A DNA stretch of 44,176 nucleotides. Origin: Bacteroidetes bacterium RIFCSPLOWO2_12_FULL_35_15. Lineage in GTDB: Bacteria; Bacteroidota; Bacteroidia; 2-12-FULL-35-15. The notes below the pieces were generated by a model, which was given only the letters and a program-made list of their open reading frames with translations, did no database searches and had not been told where the DNA came from. The stretch spans positions 1 to 44,176 of the forward strand of contig MEPB01000110.1 in NCBI GenBank assembly GCA_001769385.1, in the 5' to 3' direction. Of this stretch, positions 2,275-21,408 are shown in pieces. The position numbers and the translations under genes are program-made. Numbering within the stretch: the first letter of the stretch is position 1; the number at the start of each line of letters is the position of its first letter.

Positions 2275-4527
2275 CTATTGTTTTACCAGCCTTGAAACTA
2301 ATTTTTGGTTGTTGTTTGAAAGTTCAATAATATACACACCATTACTTAAAAACGATAAATTATATTTTTGAGTTAACTCTTCTTTCCCTGTATATTCATC
2401 TGTCATCATTATGTTTCCAAGTATGTCATAAATTATCAAATGTGTTTTTTCGTTTTTATCCATTCCATTTATTGTGAGATGAATTTCATTATTAAATGGA
2501 TTAGGCTGTAAATTCAAATGAATTGTATTTGAATTTGAATACTCCGAAATGCCGATCGAACCCGCACTGATAGTAAAATTTTTATCATTAATATCAAAAA
2601 AGATGTTCCCGATACTTTCCACTTTTATTCTGCATGTGGTTTGAGCTATACCATATGCAGGGACTGTAATAAGTTGACTTCCATCATTTGGGGTATTCGC
2701 TAAAAGTAGTGTAAATGTTGATCCGCCATCAATCGAAATTAAAACATTTACAGTTGTACAACTAACAGGTAATAAATTAGTTCCGTTAACATTCCAGGAA
2801 ATTGTTTGTGAACTATTACTTGCCCATACAATTCCGGTTGTGTTTGGATAAGCTACTTCAAACGGACCCGAACCGTCAGTTATTACCTCTGTGTTGGCAT
2901 AACATAAACCGCCACCACCCATTTTATTATCCCGGGCAATGAGCCTGAAATTTAATGTTTCCGGATTAGACGATAAATATTCACCAATAGTTCCGGTATA
3001 GTTGCCGCTTAATACAACACTCAATTCAGGAAACATTCTGCTTGGAGAACTAACCGGCATATAAGAACGGAAGTAAGGTGAATTACCAAGATCCCAGTCC
3101 CCACCAAATCCATTATCTATTTCCTCCCATTGATAGGTTAATACATCGCCATCAATGTCTGTTGCTGAACCTGTTAAAATGAAAGGTGTAGCATTGGGGA
3201 TTATAAACGAAGCGGTACAGGTAACTACAGGAGCAGTATTCCCGGTTGTTGTAATAACCGGACAATTACTTCCATTGGTAATAAAATCCATTATTTCATC
3301 AAAATTAATTGTATGAAAATAGGCTATGCTATGGGTTGATACATCATTCCAGCCACACAAACCCGCATACCCCATAATAGTAACCCCACTGCCCGGTTCT
3401 ACCTGTGTGCCTGCATTTTCATTTCCTCCACATTCATTAAAAGAATGATTGCCGCTAAACTGATGTCCCATTTCATGTGCTACATAATCAATATCAAAAG
3501 GATCTCCAACAGGATATGAATTGCCTGTAATGCCCCTTGCTTTCCCAAAGGAACATACACAACCCAGGTATGCCAATCCGCCACCGCCGGTGCTAAAAGT
3601 ATGGCCTATATCGTAATTCGCATTGCCAATATTATTATCTATTACCAGTTGACTTTCATTAATTAAAAGGTTAGCATTATTGTTACCTGAAAAAGGGTCT
3701 GAATTAAAATCAGAGTATAAAATAGATGTTTCATTCGCCACTAACACAAGTTTAACTGCCACTTCTGTTTCATATACACTGTTTATACGGACTACGGTGG
3801 TAACTATTGCAGATAAAATCTGAGATACTCCAGGATTGGTCAACCCTGTGGCTGCTTGCGCATATTCTCCTGTACAGGCAATTGCCAAACGATAGGTTCT
3901 TAAATTTTCCCCTGCGCAGATCCCCGCCCTGCTATTTTTTAAAGCATTTTCGGAAATATTTTCTTTTTTTTTATCAGTTTTAGGATTAATCACTCCAATC
4001 TCCGGTAATTTTCTGGCAGCATCTTTTTCAAAATCAGCAGCATAATAAACTATATAATCCGAAGTATTATTTCTGGAATAGGGATCAATAAAAATATCTC
4101 CGGAAAGATCTCGTATCATTGCATGAAATCCAAAATCAGTCCAATCCAGTTTACCATAAACCGATTCATCATCGATTCCCTGTATATTAAATGCTTTTAT
4201 ATCCGGAAATTGTGAGGCAAGTTCAGGAGCCATAACTGCAGACTCAACAACTCTGAATTTTTTTAATGAGCCATCAGGAAATGGTAATTCAATGATCACC
4301 TGTGAATTTTTAAGCATCATGTCCTTCTCGCTTGGAGCTGAAAAAAGACCGGATTTTAAATTACTTTCCTCCAAATGGAATACTTTATATTTTTTAGGAA
4401 TAATAGTGCGCTCGCCTGTTATTGTTACCTGGGTTTCCTCTACAGATATCCAAAATGCTTTATTTGTTTGAGCTTGAATGGAACAGATAAATGTTGCCAA
4501 AAATAAAAAAAAGACTGTTTTTTTCAT
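2275..4527 (-). CDS. Secreted reprolysin-like metalloprotease with T9SS type A sorting domain
   Basis: A predicted secreted zinc metalloprotease of the metzincin clan (M12B/reprolysin-like), 750 residues. A signal peptide covers about residues 1-19 (MKKTVFFLFLATFICSIQAQ). A propeptide-like region follows, then the catalytic domain with HEMGHQFSGNH at residues 351-361. Those three histidines would bind zinc and E352 would be the general base. The Met-turn-like TIMGYAGLC follows. The residue usually glycine in HExxHxxGxxH is Ser358 here. The middle part is beta-rich and Ig/fibronectin-like. The last roughly 85 residues (from LNLQPNPFNNEIHL to LVSRLVKQ) are a type A C-terminal domain, recognised by the type IX secretion system and removed on export. 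It stands alone, divergent from the TPR gene. The protease target is unknown. Confidence 0.9.
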   Translation of the reverse strand: MKKTVFFLFLATFICSIQAQTNKAFWISVEETQVTITGERTIIPKKYKVFHLEESNLKSGLFSAPSEKDMMLKNSQVIIELPFPDGSLKKFRVVESAVMAPELASQFPDIKAFNIQGIDDESVYGKLDWTDFGFHAMIRDLSGDIFIDPYSRNNTSDYIVYYAADFEKDAARKLPEIGVINPKTDKKKENISENALKNSRAGICAGENLRTYRLAIACTGEYAQAATGLTNPGVSQILSAIVTTVVRINSVYETEVAVKLVLVANETSILYSDFNSDPFSGNNNANLLINESQLVIDNNIGNANYDIGHTFSTGGGGLAYLGCVCSFGKARGITGNSYPVGDPFDIDYVAHEMGHQFSGNHSFNECGGNENAGTQVEPGSGVTIMGYAGLCGWNDVSTHSIAYFHTINFDEIMDFITNGSNCPVITTTGNTAPVVTCTASFIIPNATPFILTGSATDIDGDVLTYQWEEIDNGFGGDWDLGNSPYFRSYMPVSSPSRMFPELSVVLSGNYTGTIGEYLSSNPETLNFRLIARDNKMGGGGLCYANTEVITDGSGPFEVAYPNTTGIVWASNSSQTISWNVNGTNLLPVSCTTVNVLISIDGGSTFTLLLANTPNDGSQLITVPAYGIAQTTCRIKVESIGNIFFDINDKNFTISAGSIGISEYSNSNTIHLNLQPNPFNNEIHLTINGMDKNEKTHLIIYDILGNIMMTDEYTGKEELTQKYNLSFLSNGVYIIELSNNNQKLVSRLVKQ

Positions 4528-8338: not shown

Positions 8339-8512
8339 CTCCGTTAGCCGTAGCAAATAAAAATTATTTATTGTTGGGTGGAGCGTCCCGCTCCGCCATT
8401 TTTAACAAGGCTTCCAGCCTTAAAGAAAACATTTGATTTCAAAATTATGCTTGTTACGGCAAGATGCCGGTCGAAAAAAAGCGGAGCGGGACGCTCCGCT
8501 TAACAGCAAAAA
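8339..8512. repeat. Four-hairpin module A, copy 1 (174-bp direct repeat)
   Basis: This segment is repeated at 8541-8714 (offset 202). I see one base difference, T8379 versus C8581. Its two end hairpins are mutual reverse complements over GCGGAGCGTCCCGCTCCGC (first base changed in this copy). Two smaller inner hairpins are AAGGCT-TCC-AGCCTT and CGGCA-AGA-TGCCG. A spacer at 8513-8540 with a CCGAT-TTTC-ATCGG stem separates the copies. Confidence 0.85.
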
Positions 8513-8540
8513 CTTACAAAAAAAACCGATTTTCATCGGG

Positions 8541-8714
8541 CTCCGTTAGCCGTAGCAAATAAAAATTATTTATTGTTGGGCGGAGCGTCCCGCTCCGCCA
8601 TTTTTAACAAGGCTTCCAGCCTTAAAGAAAACATTTGATTTCAAAATTATGCTTGTTACGGCAAGATGCCGGTCGAAAAAAAGCGGAGCGGGACGCTCCG
8701 CTTAACAGCAAAAA
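8541..8714. repeat. Four-hairpin module A, copy 2 (174-bp direct repeat)
   Basis: Four perfect hairpins, each with a three-base loop, are found: 8579-8599 (9-bp stem, loop TCC), 8609-8623 (6 bp, TCC), 8659-8671 (5 bp, AGA) and 8682-8702 (9 bp, GGA). The first and last are inverted copies of each other, giving a bracketed two-large, two-small plan. No reading frame crosses it. Confidence 0.85.
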
Positions 8715-8740
8715 TTTATCACAAAAAAAGAAGTCTACCT

Positions 8741-8861
8741 CGCCCTCGTTTGCAACGAGGGCGGCCGAACACCGCGTTTATAACGCATAATTAGCATTCT
8801 GTTTTCGTTTCGCAATGCGTCACAGACGCCTTTTTCTTATGTCCTCGTTACAAACGAGGAC
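8741..8861. repeat. Four-hairpin module B
   Basis: The plan matches module A but the sequence differs. Hairpins are 8741-8763 (CGCCCTCGTT stem, loop TGC), 8774-8786 (GCGTT stem, loop TAT), 8817-8829 (GCGTC stem, loop ACA) and 8841-8861 (GTCCTCGTT stem, loop ACA). It is flanked by a direct repeat of about 25 bp, 8711-8735 and 8871-8895, reading AAAATTTATC then CAAAAAAAGAAG. Confidence 0.8.
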
Positions 8862-8882
8862 AAGGTCAAAAAAATTTATCTC

Positions 8883-8915
8883 AAAAAAAGAAGCCCGATT
8901 TCCATCGGGCTTCTT
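8883..8915 (-). terminator. Rho-independent terminator of the PKS gene
   Basis: A perfect stem, AGAAGCCCGAT with ATCGGGCTTCT (8889-8899 / 8904-8914, loop TTCC), is followed on the minus strand by seven U (complement of A 8883-8889). It begins about 60 bp after the PKS stop codon. A shorter relative, CCGAT-TTTC-ATCGG, sits at 8526-8539. Confidence 0.85.
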
Positions 8916-8973: not shown

Positions 8974-11900
8974 TTACGCTATCACACCATCACTTAATTC
9001 AGCAGTTAAAATTTCCAACAATTCTTCTTTGTTATCTCTACAGAACAAGTGAGAACCATTTACTTTTTTGAAGCTGAATTCAGCGGATGTATGACGTTTC
9101 CATTCCATGATCTGCTCTTCTGTAAACACAGTATCATTGATACCTGCAACAGCTGTCAGCGGACATGCTAATGGTTCGTCATCATAATAGGTGTAATTTT
9201 TTCCTAATAAAATATCAGCACGTAAAGAAGGAAGCATCTCATTAAATACTTCTTTATTTTCAATTACTGATTCAGGAATTTCCAATGAACGTAAGTGAGC
9301 TTTGATGTTCGGAATATTTTTTTCCTTATATACCTCATCATCTTGTATTGCATCCAAGAAACGGAACGGACTTGGTAAATGGGGTGCTCTCCAGCCTCCG
9401 ACAATAAATCGAACAGGAGTAACATCTTTTTCTTTACGCAAGAATCTTGCTATTTCCAAGGCAACACCTGCACCTGAACTATGACTGTAGAATGCAATTG
9501 GTGTAGTTAATAAAGACTCTGTTACTTCAGTAAACTTTTTAACCAAATCAATTACATTGTCGAATGGTTTTTCATCGCCACGCTCTTCACGGCCCGGGAA
9601 CTGAACTGCACACACTTCAATATCATCCGGTAAAAATTCATGCCATGCGTTGAAGATACTTGCTCCACCGGCAAAATATGGTAAACAGAATAAACGTAAA
9701 CGAGGATGCTCCACTTTCTTGGTACGAACGATCCATTTATCCAATTCACTTCTTTCACCTGATTGTCCGGCATCAGCACCTGATTGACCATGTAACTCAT
9801 CAATGATCTGAACAGTCATTTCTTCCATAGTCGGACCACGCATAATTCGCATCATGCTATAATCCACTGATAGATTACTTTGTATCCAGTTACGGATCTG
9901 ATTTGCCATCAATGAATCCAAACCATATTTTGTAACAGGCTCTGATGTATCCACTTTATCACCTGTAGTACCAAGTACTCTGGCGATGGTGTCTTTCAAT
10001 TGTGCAAGCAAGATTTCTTTTTGCTCTTCCGGTTTTGCTTCTAAAATTGTTGCTTTCAATGCACCATTTCCTCCGCTGCCGGCAGTTCCTGCGTTCAATT
10101 GTTTTTCTTTGATCAAATGTGCAAAACGACTGGAGTTTGCAGAATGAGGGAAGAAACTTCCGATCATTTCCCAATCCGAATCAGTAGCTACACGCTGAAC
10201 AGGATTGTTCAGCAACATTTGTTCTAACACACGTAATGCTTGGTCTAACGAGAATTGTTTCCAACCTTGTTTGTAAAGCAATCCACCCACATTTCCACTT
10301 CTTGAAACAAATCCTACTTCACCAATAACTCCCCAATTGATTGTCATTGCAGGCAATCCGATTGATCTGCGATAATGCGAGAAATTATCAAGGAAACTAT
10401 TTGCTCCTACATAACTTACCTGACCGGGATTTCCGTAGATCGCAGAAATAGAAGAGTAAGAAACGAAATGTTCCAAGGCCATGTCTTTTGTTGCTTCGTG
10501 CAACAACCAACATCCAACAGCTTTTGGAATAAATACATTCATATAACGTTTGTAATCTATTTCCGGAATACTTCCGTCATCCAATACCATTGCGGCATGC
10601 TGGATTCCTTTTAAAGGAGGCATCGTGTTTTTAATTTCATTGAATACACGATCAATATCTGCTTTGTTGGAAACGTCAGCTTTTGCGATCATTACATTGA
10701 TGCCTTTTGCTTTCATTTTTTCAACCACGGCTTTTTCTTCGTCTAACTTAGGTCCGCTTCTGCTCATCAACACTAAATTCTTCGCACCTTTGCTGGTCAT
10801 CCAATTCGCCACTGCTAAACCAAATCCGGAAGCACCACCGGTAATTAAGTAAGTACCATCCGCTTTAAATTCGATATGACCAGGAGGAGCAACTTGTACA
10901 TCTCCTTCCATCGAAACAATTACTTTTCCGATGTGACGTGCACCTGCCATAAATTGGAAAGCATCAGCTGTCTTCGCAACAGGGAATACTTTTACAGGAT
11001 GAGCAGGGAATTTATTCGCAACAAAATAATCAATTGATTCCTGGAATAATTTTCCACCAAACAATTCTTTTTGCTTGAATAATCGGTCCACATCCACGCC
11101 AAAATAAGTAAGGTTATTTCCGAAAGGCTGTAAACCTAATTTACTGTTTCTGTAAATATCTGTTTTTCCTATCTCCACGAAACGACCATAAGCAGAAAGA
11201 CATTTAACGCTTTTGAAAATGGCTTCACCTGAAAGTGAATTCAAAATAACATCCACTCCTTTACCTTTTGTTTTCGCCATGATCTGATCAGCAAAATCCA
11301 GCGTACGTGAACTCATAATGTTTTCAGGCTCCACACCAATACTTTCAATGTATGCACGTTTATCAGCACTACTTACTGTTGCATAAATTTCAGCACCAAT
11401 TGCTTTTGCAATATGAATTGCAGCAATACCAACTCCACCTGCAGCAGCATGAATAAGGATAGTTTCACCTTTTTCCAGTCGGCAATGATGAACTAAAGAG
11501 AAGTAAGCAGTTGTATAAACAACCGGTAAACTTGCTGCTTCGTTCCAGTTAATGTTTTTTGGTTTCTGAACAACGTGACATGCTCTTGGATAAGCAAATC
11601 CGCCTAAACAAGATGCTGCAGTTGCCATCACCTCATCACCCACTTTTACATTGGTTACATTTTTTCCAACAGATGCAACAACTCCGGCACATTCCAAACC
11701 AAATGTTTTACCAAATAAACCGCCAACAACGGCAGCATCAGAAAGTAATCCCATACCGATCATGATGTCGCGGAAATTCAAAGCAGAAGCTTTGATCTTT
11801 ATTTCCACTTCACCTTCTGCTGGTGATCGTCTGTCTGTTTGACGTAGTGTAATATTATCCAACACACCGTATTCGGTCATGTCTGCAAAATAAGGCGAAC

Positions 11901-18816: not shown

Positions 18817-21408
18817 TTATCCGCATTTGGAATGTCCGCAACTTTTGCATTTTAAACATCCTTCTTCATAGATCAACCCATCGGTATCACCACAACTTGA
18901 ACATGTTTTATCTTTTGCAACTGTTCCATCCGGGATGAACTTCTTAAGTGCTCTTTCCACACCATGTTTCCAGGTATTGATACTGTCGCTGTATAAATTC
19001 AAATTCTCCACCAAGTCCACAACCTTTGGAATTGGCATTCCATGGCGCAATACACCTGAAATCAATTTTGCATAGTTCCAATATTCTTTATTAAATGAAC
19101 GTGACAGACCTTCAATGGTCACACGGTATCCTTCTTTGTCAAGATATTGGAAATCGTAACGTTTGGTATCTTCCGTACTGGCACTTTTCAATATCCAACC
19201 TGATTTTACCCATGATGGAATCACAAATGAATCTTCATACTTACCGGTGAATATCTCGTATGGTTTACCATTGATAGAACCCACAAAAGCGATCCATTTT
19301 TCATCATGATTCATGAAACGAACAATTTCTGCTTCCAGACGTTCCGGACGGATAGGTGCAATTGTTTCAACGATCTCATCATTTTTCTTTTCTTCTTTCT
19401 TTTTGTCTGTTGACACCAACACACCACTACGAGAACCATCACGGTAAACGGTAATACCTTTCAATCCTTGTTTCCAGGCTTCGAAATAAATTTCTCCAAC
19501 TGTATCTTCTGATACATCAGCAGCTAAATTTATTGTTGAACTGATGGAATGTGTAGTATATTTCTGAACAATGGCTTGTAATTTTATACGTTTCACCCAG
19601 TCAATTTCAGGAGCAGTGGAACCTTTGTATGGGCTCTTGCTGATATCCGTTTCACCGGTAGCTTCCATCCATTGTTTTAATTTATGGTGATATACCACAA
19701 ACTCCTGCCATGAATCGCCCATTGGATCTCTGAAATCAACACGGTTGTTTGTATCCAACGGATTTACTTTTCTTCTGCGTTTGTAGGAAAGCATAAATAC
19801 AGGCTCAATACCTGATGATGATTGTGCCAGCATACTCAATGTTCCTGTAGGTGCAACAGTACTCAAGGATATATTTCTTCTGCCATGTTTCATCATACGG
19901 TTGTATGACTCCGGAAATTCTTTTTGGAACATTTGAATAAACTCAGATGTGTTTTCAATTTTCGAATTGAAGTCTTCAAATTTTCCACGTTCAATAGCCA
20001 TATCAATAGAGCTATCAAATTCCGCTTCACATTTTGTTTTCATGATCTTATCCACTTCAAGCAATGCTTCTTCTGAATCGAATCCAAAACTTAAAGCAGC
20101 CATCGTATCAGCTAATGCAGTAAAACCAAGACCTGTTCTTCTTCCTTTTTTTCCTGCATTGTAAAGCAGTTTCCAAGTATCTACCTCTACTTCTTTTACA
20201 TAATCAGGCTCCGGATCAGCGTTTATTTTTGCTAAAATGCGATCGATATGTTCTAATTCCAGATCAACCAAGTCATCCATTAATCGTTGTGATTCATAGG
20301 TTGTTTCATAGAATTTTTTGTAATCAAATTTTGCTTTTGTTGTAAATGGATTTTCAACAAAATTATACAGGTTAAGCGCAATTAATCGGCAGCTATCTCC
20401 GCCTTGCATAGCGATTTCGGAACAAGGATTTGTTGAAACGTTTCTGAATCCTGGATATACCGATGATGTAGAATAATAATGCTGACGATCCCAGAAAATC
20501 AATCCCGGCTCAGCAGTGTTGTGTGCACACTTAATAATGGTTTTCCACAAATCGCGAGCTTTCACAGTTTTTGAAAACTTCGGAGTTGGAGAATCGATTG
20601 GGAAACGCAATGTGTAATCCTTATCCTCAGCAACAGCATTCATAAATTCGTCAGATAAACGCACAGAGATATTTGCTCCTGTTACTTTTGACAGATCTTG
20701 TTTGATGCTGATAAATTGTTCCACATCAGGATGAGCAATATCAATAGTGATCATCAAGGCACCACGTCTTCCATTTTGCGCAACTTCACGGGTAGTATTG
20801 GAAAAACGCTCCATAAAAGAAACAGCTCCTGTTGTTGAACCGGCAGCATTTGATACCATCATACCGGAAGGACGCAACGTAGATATATCTGCACCAACAC
20901 CGCAACGTCTTTTAAACAATTGTGCCATTTGTTGATCGGTATAAAATATACCTCCGTATGAATCATAAATTTCAGGTAATACAATACAATTAGATAAAGA
21001 TGCGATCACATGAGGATTACCTAATGATGACATTACACTTCCCTGAGGAATAACATGCTTGAACTTTTGAAAATAGGCAAGTATTTTTTCTTCATCTAAA
21101 TGACTACGTTTTTGGCCATATTTTGAAAGGTTTTTTAAACTTCCATTTAAATGAGCTTTTTCTTTGTGCTCGTTTTCTTTGCGTGCAAATTCTTTTGCCA
21201 TACGCAAATGCATATCATCCGGAGTCAGTTCAACTAATTTGCCTTCTTTATTTTTCATGGCATATTTGTTTATCCATGTGGAAGCTGCTAGCTCATCTCC
21301 ATCAAAATAGGCTACACTTTTTTCAAACACTTCTTCATATGAATATGTTTGGCCGATCAATTTTTTTTCGATTTTTTCAGTTTTTTCAGTAGTTTTCAAT
21401 GACAACAT
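18817..21408 (-). CDS. nrdJ: Vitamin B12-dependent (class II) ribonucleotide reductase
   Basis: This 863-residue enzyme reduces ribonucleotides to deoxyribonucleotides using adenosylcobalamin as radical generator. The active-site loop NPCSE lies at 327-331. Cys329 is the expected thiyl-radical residue, with Cys141 (SNCIVLP) and Cys340 (DSCRL) as the redox pair; the spacing equals that of the Thermotoga maritima enzyme. The loop PTGTLSMLAQSSSGIEP (520-536) and YRDGSRSG (655-662) are typical of the family. A TSCPD-type domain covers about 690-795. The C-terminus is cysteine-rich (CSSCG...CLKCKSCGHSKCG, six Cys from 836 to 862), used for thioredoxin-linked re-reduction or zinc binding. It is single-gene, ended by the terminator at 18761-18792. 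The adenosyltransferase at 28449-28997 would make its cofactor. It works with or without oxygen. Confidence 0.96.
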   Translation of the reverse strand: MLSLKTTEKTEKIEKKLIGQTYSYEEVFEKSVAYFDGDELAASTWINKYAMKNKEGKLVELTPDDMHLRMAKEFARKENEHKEKAHLNGSLKNLSKYGQKRSHLDEEKILAYFQKFKHVIPQGSVMSSLGNPHVIASLSNCIVLPEIYDSYGGIFYTDQQMAQLFKRRCGVGADISTLRPSGMMVSNAAGSTTGAVSFMERFSNTTREVAQNGRRGALMITIDIAHPDVEQFISIKQDLSKVTGANISVRLSDEFMNAVAEDKDYTLRFPIDSPTPKFSKTVKARDLWKTIIKCAHNTAEPGLIFWDRQHYYSTSSVYPGFRNVSTNPCSEIAMQGGDSCRLIALNLYNFVENPFTTKAKFDYKKFYETTYESQRLMDDLVDLELEHIDRILAKINADPEPDYVKEVEVDTWKLLYNAGKKGRRTGLGFTALADTMAALSFGFDSEEALLEVDKIMKTKCEAEFDSSIDMAIERGKFEDFNSKIENTSEFIQMFQKEFPESYNRMMKHGRRNISLSTVAPTGTLSMLAQSSSGIEPVFMLSYKRRRKVNPLDTNNRVDFRDPMGDSWQEFVVYHHKLKQWMEATGETDISKSPYKGSTAPEIDWVKRIKLQAIVQKYTTHSISSTINLAADVSEDTVGEIYFEAWKQGLKGITVYRDGSRSGVLVSTDKKKEEKKNDEIVETIAPIRPERLEAEIVRFMNHDEKWIAFVGSINGKPYEIFTGKYEDSFVIPSWVKSGWILKSASTEDTKRYDFQYLDKEGYRVTIEGLSRSFNKEYWNYAKLISGVLRHGMPIPKVVDLVENLNLYSDSINTWKHGVERALKKFIPDGTVAKDKTCSSCGDTDGLIYEEGCLKCKSCGHSKCG

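Follow-up and report, generated by a model that had tools for sequence, protein, structure and literature searches.

Our analysis indicates that the three hairpin modules lying beyond the 3′ end of a PKS gene in this Bacteroidota genome very probably belong to two families, A and B, of non-autonomous, REPIN-like mobile elements, each made of RAYT transposon ends that became joined after the transposase gene was lost. The window analysed is the whole of contig C110 (44,176 nucleotides), and the genome to which it belongs (G000) comprises 5.39 Mb in 110 contigs. The neighbouring PKS is a protein of 2802 aa with KS, AT, DH, MT, ER, KR, ACP and TE domains. On the minus strand, the order is PKS gene, terminator, module B, linker, module A, a relic terminator, a further module A, and an SRPBCC-type gene (Table 1). 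A type IX secretion (CHU_C) domain is also encoded within the window.

Table 1 Coordinates of the modules, their neighbours and the partner RAYT genes.
Feature	Contig	Position	Strand	Remarks
Polyketide_cyc2 / SRPBCC-fold small gene	C110	7693-8232	-	downstream of modules
Module A copy 1, REPIN-like pair of inverted two-hairpin units	C110	8339-8512		99% identical to copy 2; both halves match model R1
Outer left-end box CCGTTAGCCGTAG	C110	8341-8353	+	conserved at left end of family copies C105, C19, C60
A copy 1 left unit	C110	8372-8420	+	R1 68.6 bits, E 1.5e-16; foot TGTT; 10-bp/3-nt hairpin 8376-8398; small hairpin from 8407
A copy 1 right unit	C110	8457-8505	-	R1 72.6 bits, E 1.3e-17; foot 8502-8505; big hairpin 8479-8501; small hairpin 8457-8469
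Relic copy of PKS terminator stem (CCGAT..ATCGG)	C110	8526-8539	-	duplicated along with module A
Module A copy 2, REPIN-like pair	C110	8541-8714		R1 matches; 99% identity with copy 1
Second CCGTTAGCCGTAG box	C110	8543-8555		in module A copy 2
A copy 2 left unit	C110	8574-8622	+	R1 72.4 bits
A copy 2 right unit	C110	8659-8707	-	R1 72.6 bits
Linker direct repeat copy 1	C110	8710-8733		24 nt, one side of module B
Module B	C110	about 8737-8866		
Module B left unit	C110	8737-8786	+	R2 67.4 bits, E 9.1e-17; big hairpin 8741-8763; small hairpin 8774-8786
Module B right unit	C110	8817-8866	-	R2 70.3 bits, E 1.5e-17; big hairpin 8840-8862; small hairpin 8817-8829
Linker direct repeat copy 2	C110	8870-8893		24 nt, other side of module B
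PKS terminator stem	C110	8888-8915	-	12-pair stem, T-rich downstream on - strand
PKS gene	C110	8974-17382	-	modules A, A, B lie beyond its 3′ end
A-type RAYT	C44	10156-10626		between A units 9973-10020 (+) and 10705-10752 (-)
B-type RAYT	C61	19429-19908		between B units 19322-19372 (+) and 19946-19996 (-)

Each module consists of a single two-hairpin unit present twice in inverted orientation, with the big hairpin outermost. The unit comprises a 4-nt foot, a 10-bp stem closed by a 3-nt loop, a spacer of 8–10 nt, and a small stem of 5–6 bp that also carries a 3-nt loop; the 10-bp length of the outer stems counts a terminal pair of the A-T, G-T or C-G type. The original prediction had described two copies of module A one base apart, large outer hairpins around small inner ones, and a plan that A and B share without sharing sequence, and all of this was borne out. 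The two A copies differ at one of 174 positions (T at 8379, C at 8581), and the eight loops of A copy 2 (TCC, TCC, AGA, GGA) and of module B (TGC, TAT, ACA, ACA) are three bases long. The feet also distinguish the families, reading NGTT[A/G] in family A and NCYT or similar in family B. A box, CCGTTAGCCGTAG, resembles the foot plus the 5′ arm of the big hairpin, and several copies of family A, both A modules among them, carry a similar box at their left end, about 20 nt outside the foot. Treated as single-stranded DNA, modules A and B fold with z scores of -7.7 and -7.4, and none of 200 shuffles folded equally well; in an alternative fold of module A, its two halves pair mutually as one long hairpin. 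Scanning the rest of the window with the covariance models for A-type (R1) and B-type (R2) units gave no convincing match beyond the six units of the modules (67–73 bits).

Across the genome, the same models identified 43 A-type and 22 B-type units. These are almost all extragenic: ORFs of 100 aa or more enclose a single one of the 62 units checked, whereas 72% of random positions at the same loci fall within them. Inverted doublets are formed by all three window modules and recur on contigs C102, C19, C50, C37, C25, C109 and others, and the arrangement on C102, like that at the window locus, fits tandem duplication of a module, there together with its left flank. Compensatory changes, in which both sides of a pair are altered, affect 7 of the 15 pairs in family A and 5 of the 16 in family B, most stem changes preserve Watson-Crick pairs, and the true pairing register stands far above slid registers in both alignments. 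Paired cells reach 98–99% in the A and B alignments, a percentage that is inflated because the units had been picked beforehand by a pairing rule; the covariation is still informative owing to the kinds of change it involves (G-C to T-A, A-T to G-C). Between two B modules on C50 (13179-13260) lies a hairpin of a third type (CCGGCATCTTGCCG, GAAGCAGGATGCTTC), which does not fully agree with either family, and B-type units at C60:22113, C60:22704 and C18:24564 bear a longer insert in the loop of the big hairpin (AGCAAAGCG-like), possibly a sub-family.

Two readings of the modules bear directly on these observations. According to the first, the array is nothing more than a chance palindrome duplicated locally in tandem, as the 99% identity of the A copies and the duplicated linkers might suggest; the original prediction had tied such a purely local origin to an absence of other copies and of covariation. 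It is refuted by the dozens of dispersed relatives in this genome and others, and we give it virtually no credence. According to the second, also among the candidates first proposed, the modules would be a structured non-coding RNA or an mRNA 3′-end stabiliser, with which their stable folds and covarying stems agree. This is highly improbable: no Rfam family reaches its gathering score (the best match attains 32.4 bits against a threshold of 114), the stem changes mostly keep Watson-Crick pairs in hairpins that, as palindromes, are usable on both DNA strands, the units flank RAYT genes, and the position of the modules is past the PKS terminator, outside the 3′ end of its mRNA.

A further reading is that the modules terminate transcription, or insulate the PKS from its downstream neighbour, and have been retained for that role. 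Between 8200 and 9000 there are 11 terminator-like sites on both strands where 1.2 would be expected, and T runs follow the A-type big hairpins. We nevertheless regard this as improbable, given that the T tracts at B-type hairpins are weak, that a proper PKS terminator already exists upstream of the modules, and that dozens of unrelated loci with varied gene orientations contain the same units, which are also found around RAYT genes. For mobile elements of the kind proposed here, additional termination in the interval after the PKS, ahead of the downstream gene, could be a side effect of their presence.

We propose that the local array itself began with insertion close to the PKS terminator, and that a module was then duplicated in tandem along with its linker. 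The CCGAT..ATCGG stem after A copy 1, which had been said to recur as the PKS terminator, is real at both sites, and the direct repeat flanking module B, initially put at about 25 bp, measures 24 nt with 96% identity between its copies. This repeat was considered as a target-site duplication around module B; since it also follows module A, duplication of module plus linker is preferred, and the presence of a linker after each module fits tandem duplication of a module with its flank. Tandem REPIN arrays that take in flanking DNA are on record in Pseudomonas (PMC3116915).

Among the candidates of the original prediction was an element of the REP/BIME kind, mobilised in trans by a RAYT, and a search for such a gene had been called for. 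A search for Y1 transposases in the same genome returned two intact genes situated between inverted units, one between A units on C44 and one between B units on C61, and together with the dispersed copies and the covarying stems these cognate genes lend support to that proposal. The A RAYT (188 aa, motifs NHIH and YIHNNP) and the B RAYT (181 aa, NHLH and YIHQNP) score 114.5 and 93.1 bits with the NCBIfam model NF047646 REP_Tyr_transpos, above its cut-off of 80; with the IS200 model NF033573 they reach 32.2 and 25.1 bits and stay below the cut-off of 55. H60 and H62 of the HxH motif and Y143 are invariant in the RAYT alignment, and the closest RAYT relatives are from Bacteroidota. The modelled structure of a 90%-identical homologue of the A RAYT (pLDDT 88) has its best PDB fold match in 4er8, a RAYT bound to a REP hairpin (E 2.8e-8), with IS608 and ISDra2 less close. 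A second A-type element on C58 has A units around a RAYT copy decayed by an in-frame stop, and C78 and C88 hold the two ends of a third, split by contig ends. The left half of module A in the window differs from its right half, and both differ from the ends on C44. Four Y1 genes elsewhere in the genome, on C38, C60, C43 and C102, served as controls; no double hairpins lie beside them, and they are thus not considered partners.

On C61 (17000-21500), in the surroundings of the B RAYT, a partial RAYT consisting of the C-terminal part is followed by units, which amounts to the 3′ part of the element being duplicated in tandem. On C48 (44200-46600), a RAYT-like frame runs in frame into a PKD/secretion-tail-like protein, 402 aa, so that a RAYT fragment appears fused to the end of a cell-surface protein.

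Among the 31 genomes examined, A units are present in 13, a patchy distribution as expected of mobile DNA. Wherever an A-type RAYT of at least 75% identity occurs (G000, G013, G024, G001), A units lie on both sides of it in every case. Units and RAYTs do not correspond one to one, since A units are also found in several genomes with only distant RAYTs, such as G004 and G005 (best identity 43–48%), and these two also contain B units in the absence of a close B RAYT (39–40%). Either the parents have been lost in such genomes, or related RAYTs act across families, or the assemblies are incomplete.

One of these relatives, G013, preserves deletion intermediates. A 200-bp element occurs twice on its contig C51, identical in sequence and set in different flanks, with both two-hairpin ends kept and the RAYT between them reduced to its start (AAAAAGCCAACAGGTTAT) and end (ACATACAAATAG) regions; on C92, RAYT residues 1-26 are fused to 163-188. 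The elements on C51 and C92 thus have the form of a MITE, with the ends of a full element and the gene deleted, and RAYT fragments also lie beside or between units on C9 and C92 and on C54 of G005. From these remnants it follows that REPIN-like elements without the gene have arisen from full elements through internal deletion. Elsewhere on C51 of G013 (3666-3990), truncated left ends follow one another head to tail, with each successive end beginning inside a hairpin of the one before (CTTGC/CCCC, TCCCG/CCCC), which suggests one-ended or nested events. An empty site was found for no copy, so that movement is what we infer from these patterns, and at the window locus the neighbour proteins of relatives (at most 68% identity) are too diverged for synteny or an empty site to be compared.

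The deletion derivatives look MITE-like, and the occurrence of the A RAYT in intact (C44), interrupted (C58) and split (C78/C88) form suggests that the gene itself moves; both would suit parents that are active insertion sequences of the IS200/IS605 type rather than domesticated RAYTs, making the modules ordinary MITEs of an IS. We consider this rather unlikely, as the proteins fall below the IS200 cut-off and above that for RAYTs, and their nearest fold is that of 4er8, not of IS608 or ISDra2.

The two-hairpin plan extends beyond this genome. A strict detector (both loops of 3 nt, a big stem of at least 8 and a small stem of at least 5 pairs, big hairpin distal) was applied to RAYT flanks. 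It identified the double hairpin in 28 of 56 flanks of A RAYT homologues (1 of 1120 shuffles) and in 15 of 38 RAYT flanks from relatives (1 of 760 shuffles), two sets that overlap slightly, as L076/L211 and L078/L213 are apparently the same loci. In a survey of RAYT flanks from the phylum Bacteroidota, 44 of 156 were positive against 5 of 3120 shuffles, with unrelated hairpin sequences; in 17 of the surveyed flanks the two hairpins both have loops of 4 nt, and 14 flanks combine 3- and 4-nt loops. While hairpin sequences are fully different between elements, the two ends of one element agree, at 80% identity against 44% between elements, a value that none of 10,000 permutations reached. For the wider interpretation of this pattern we see an even chance: a large Bacteroidota branch of RAYTs would recognise a composite two-hairpin end with equal short loops (3+3 or 4+4), this end would evolve as a unit with the enzyme while its hairpin sequences are replaced, and the gene would have been shed repeatedly to leave REPINs, a mode unlike the foot-plus-single-hairpin of the RAYTs studied so far. 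Those are known to read a GTAG foot together with one hairpin, and to cut at CT or CA (PMC8266576).

For the elements described here, the RAYT, a HUH/tyrosine enzyme, would bind the paired hairpins when the DNA is single-stranded at replication, and would cut near the outer foot, GTT[A/G] in family A and NCYT-like in family B, with the foot presumably acting as guide. The segment could then be moved or copied in trans into extragenic DNA.

The modules share with REPINs their many extragenic palindromes, their inverted doublets and the recurrence of the same units on the flanks of a RAYT; the canonical GT[AG]G foot of REPs is absent, and there are two hairpins per unit instead of one. Like the Pseudomonas REPINs of Bertels and Rainey (2011, PMC3116915), they are extragenic inverted doublets linked to a RAYT, occur in tandem clusters that include flanking DNA, and can adopt alternative hairpin and clover folds; they differ in having two hairpins per end, a foot other than GTAG, and tens rather than hundreds of copies. 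With the REP/BIME and TnpAREP of E. coli they have in common a cognate Y1 enzyme, inverted palindromes and a 5′ foot, but the E. coli REP is one bulged hairpin with GTAG, whereas here perfect 10-bp stems with a 3-nt loop are accompanied by a second small hairpin. The HUH/Y1 fold and subterminal hairpins recall IS200/IS605, from which the sub-cut-off protein score and the inverted two-hairpin ends set them apart. A REP of the CGTC kind, with an unpaired CGTC tag, a stem of 8–9 bp and a loop of 4–5 nt, was tried for module B and rejected, as its CGTC lies inside the stem and its loop has 3 nt. The RAYT-like genes of TIRtrons (Di Nocera et al. 2013, PMC3733652) likewise lie between inverted repeats that have no relation to GTAG REPs, some of these repeats being double palindromic.

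The elements match the loosely described TnpAREP subclass 2.6 (group 5 of Bertels), for which the text of Quentin et al. (2018, PMC6006769) reports genes from Bacteroidota flanked by ‘atypical secondary structures’ that lack GT[AG]G. Points of agreement are Y1 proteins of about 180 aa (about 179 in the subclass), the NH[LIV]H and YIH[QN]NP motifs, and hairpins without a GT[AG]G foot that flank the gene and have copies elsewhere in the genome. The WQ motif given for the subclass in the table of that paper was not seen, A having FWTHENH and B VWTDDNH. There, the structures are described just as atypical and weaker, in contrast to the fixed two-hairpin plan, equal short loops and REPIN-like pairing found here. 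We found no description of this plan in the texts consulted, among them that of PMC6006769.

These findings touch on two open questions, the origin of REPINs from RAYT transposons and the means by which RAYTs know their own repeats. The genus shows full, decayed and gene-free elements side by side, and a single genome holds two RAYT/REP families with the same architecture and unrelated sequences, which makes it a natural test system for REP recognition outside Proteobacteria. Repeats of this kind near biosynthetic genes should not be taken for riboswitches or dedicated terminators.
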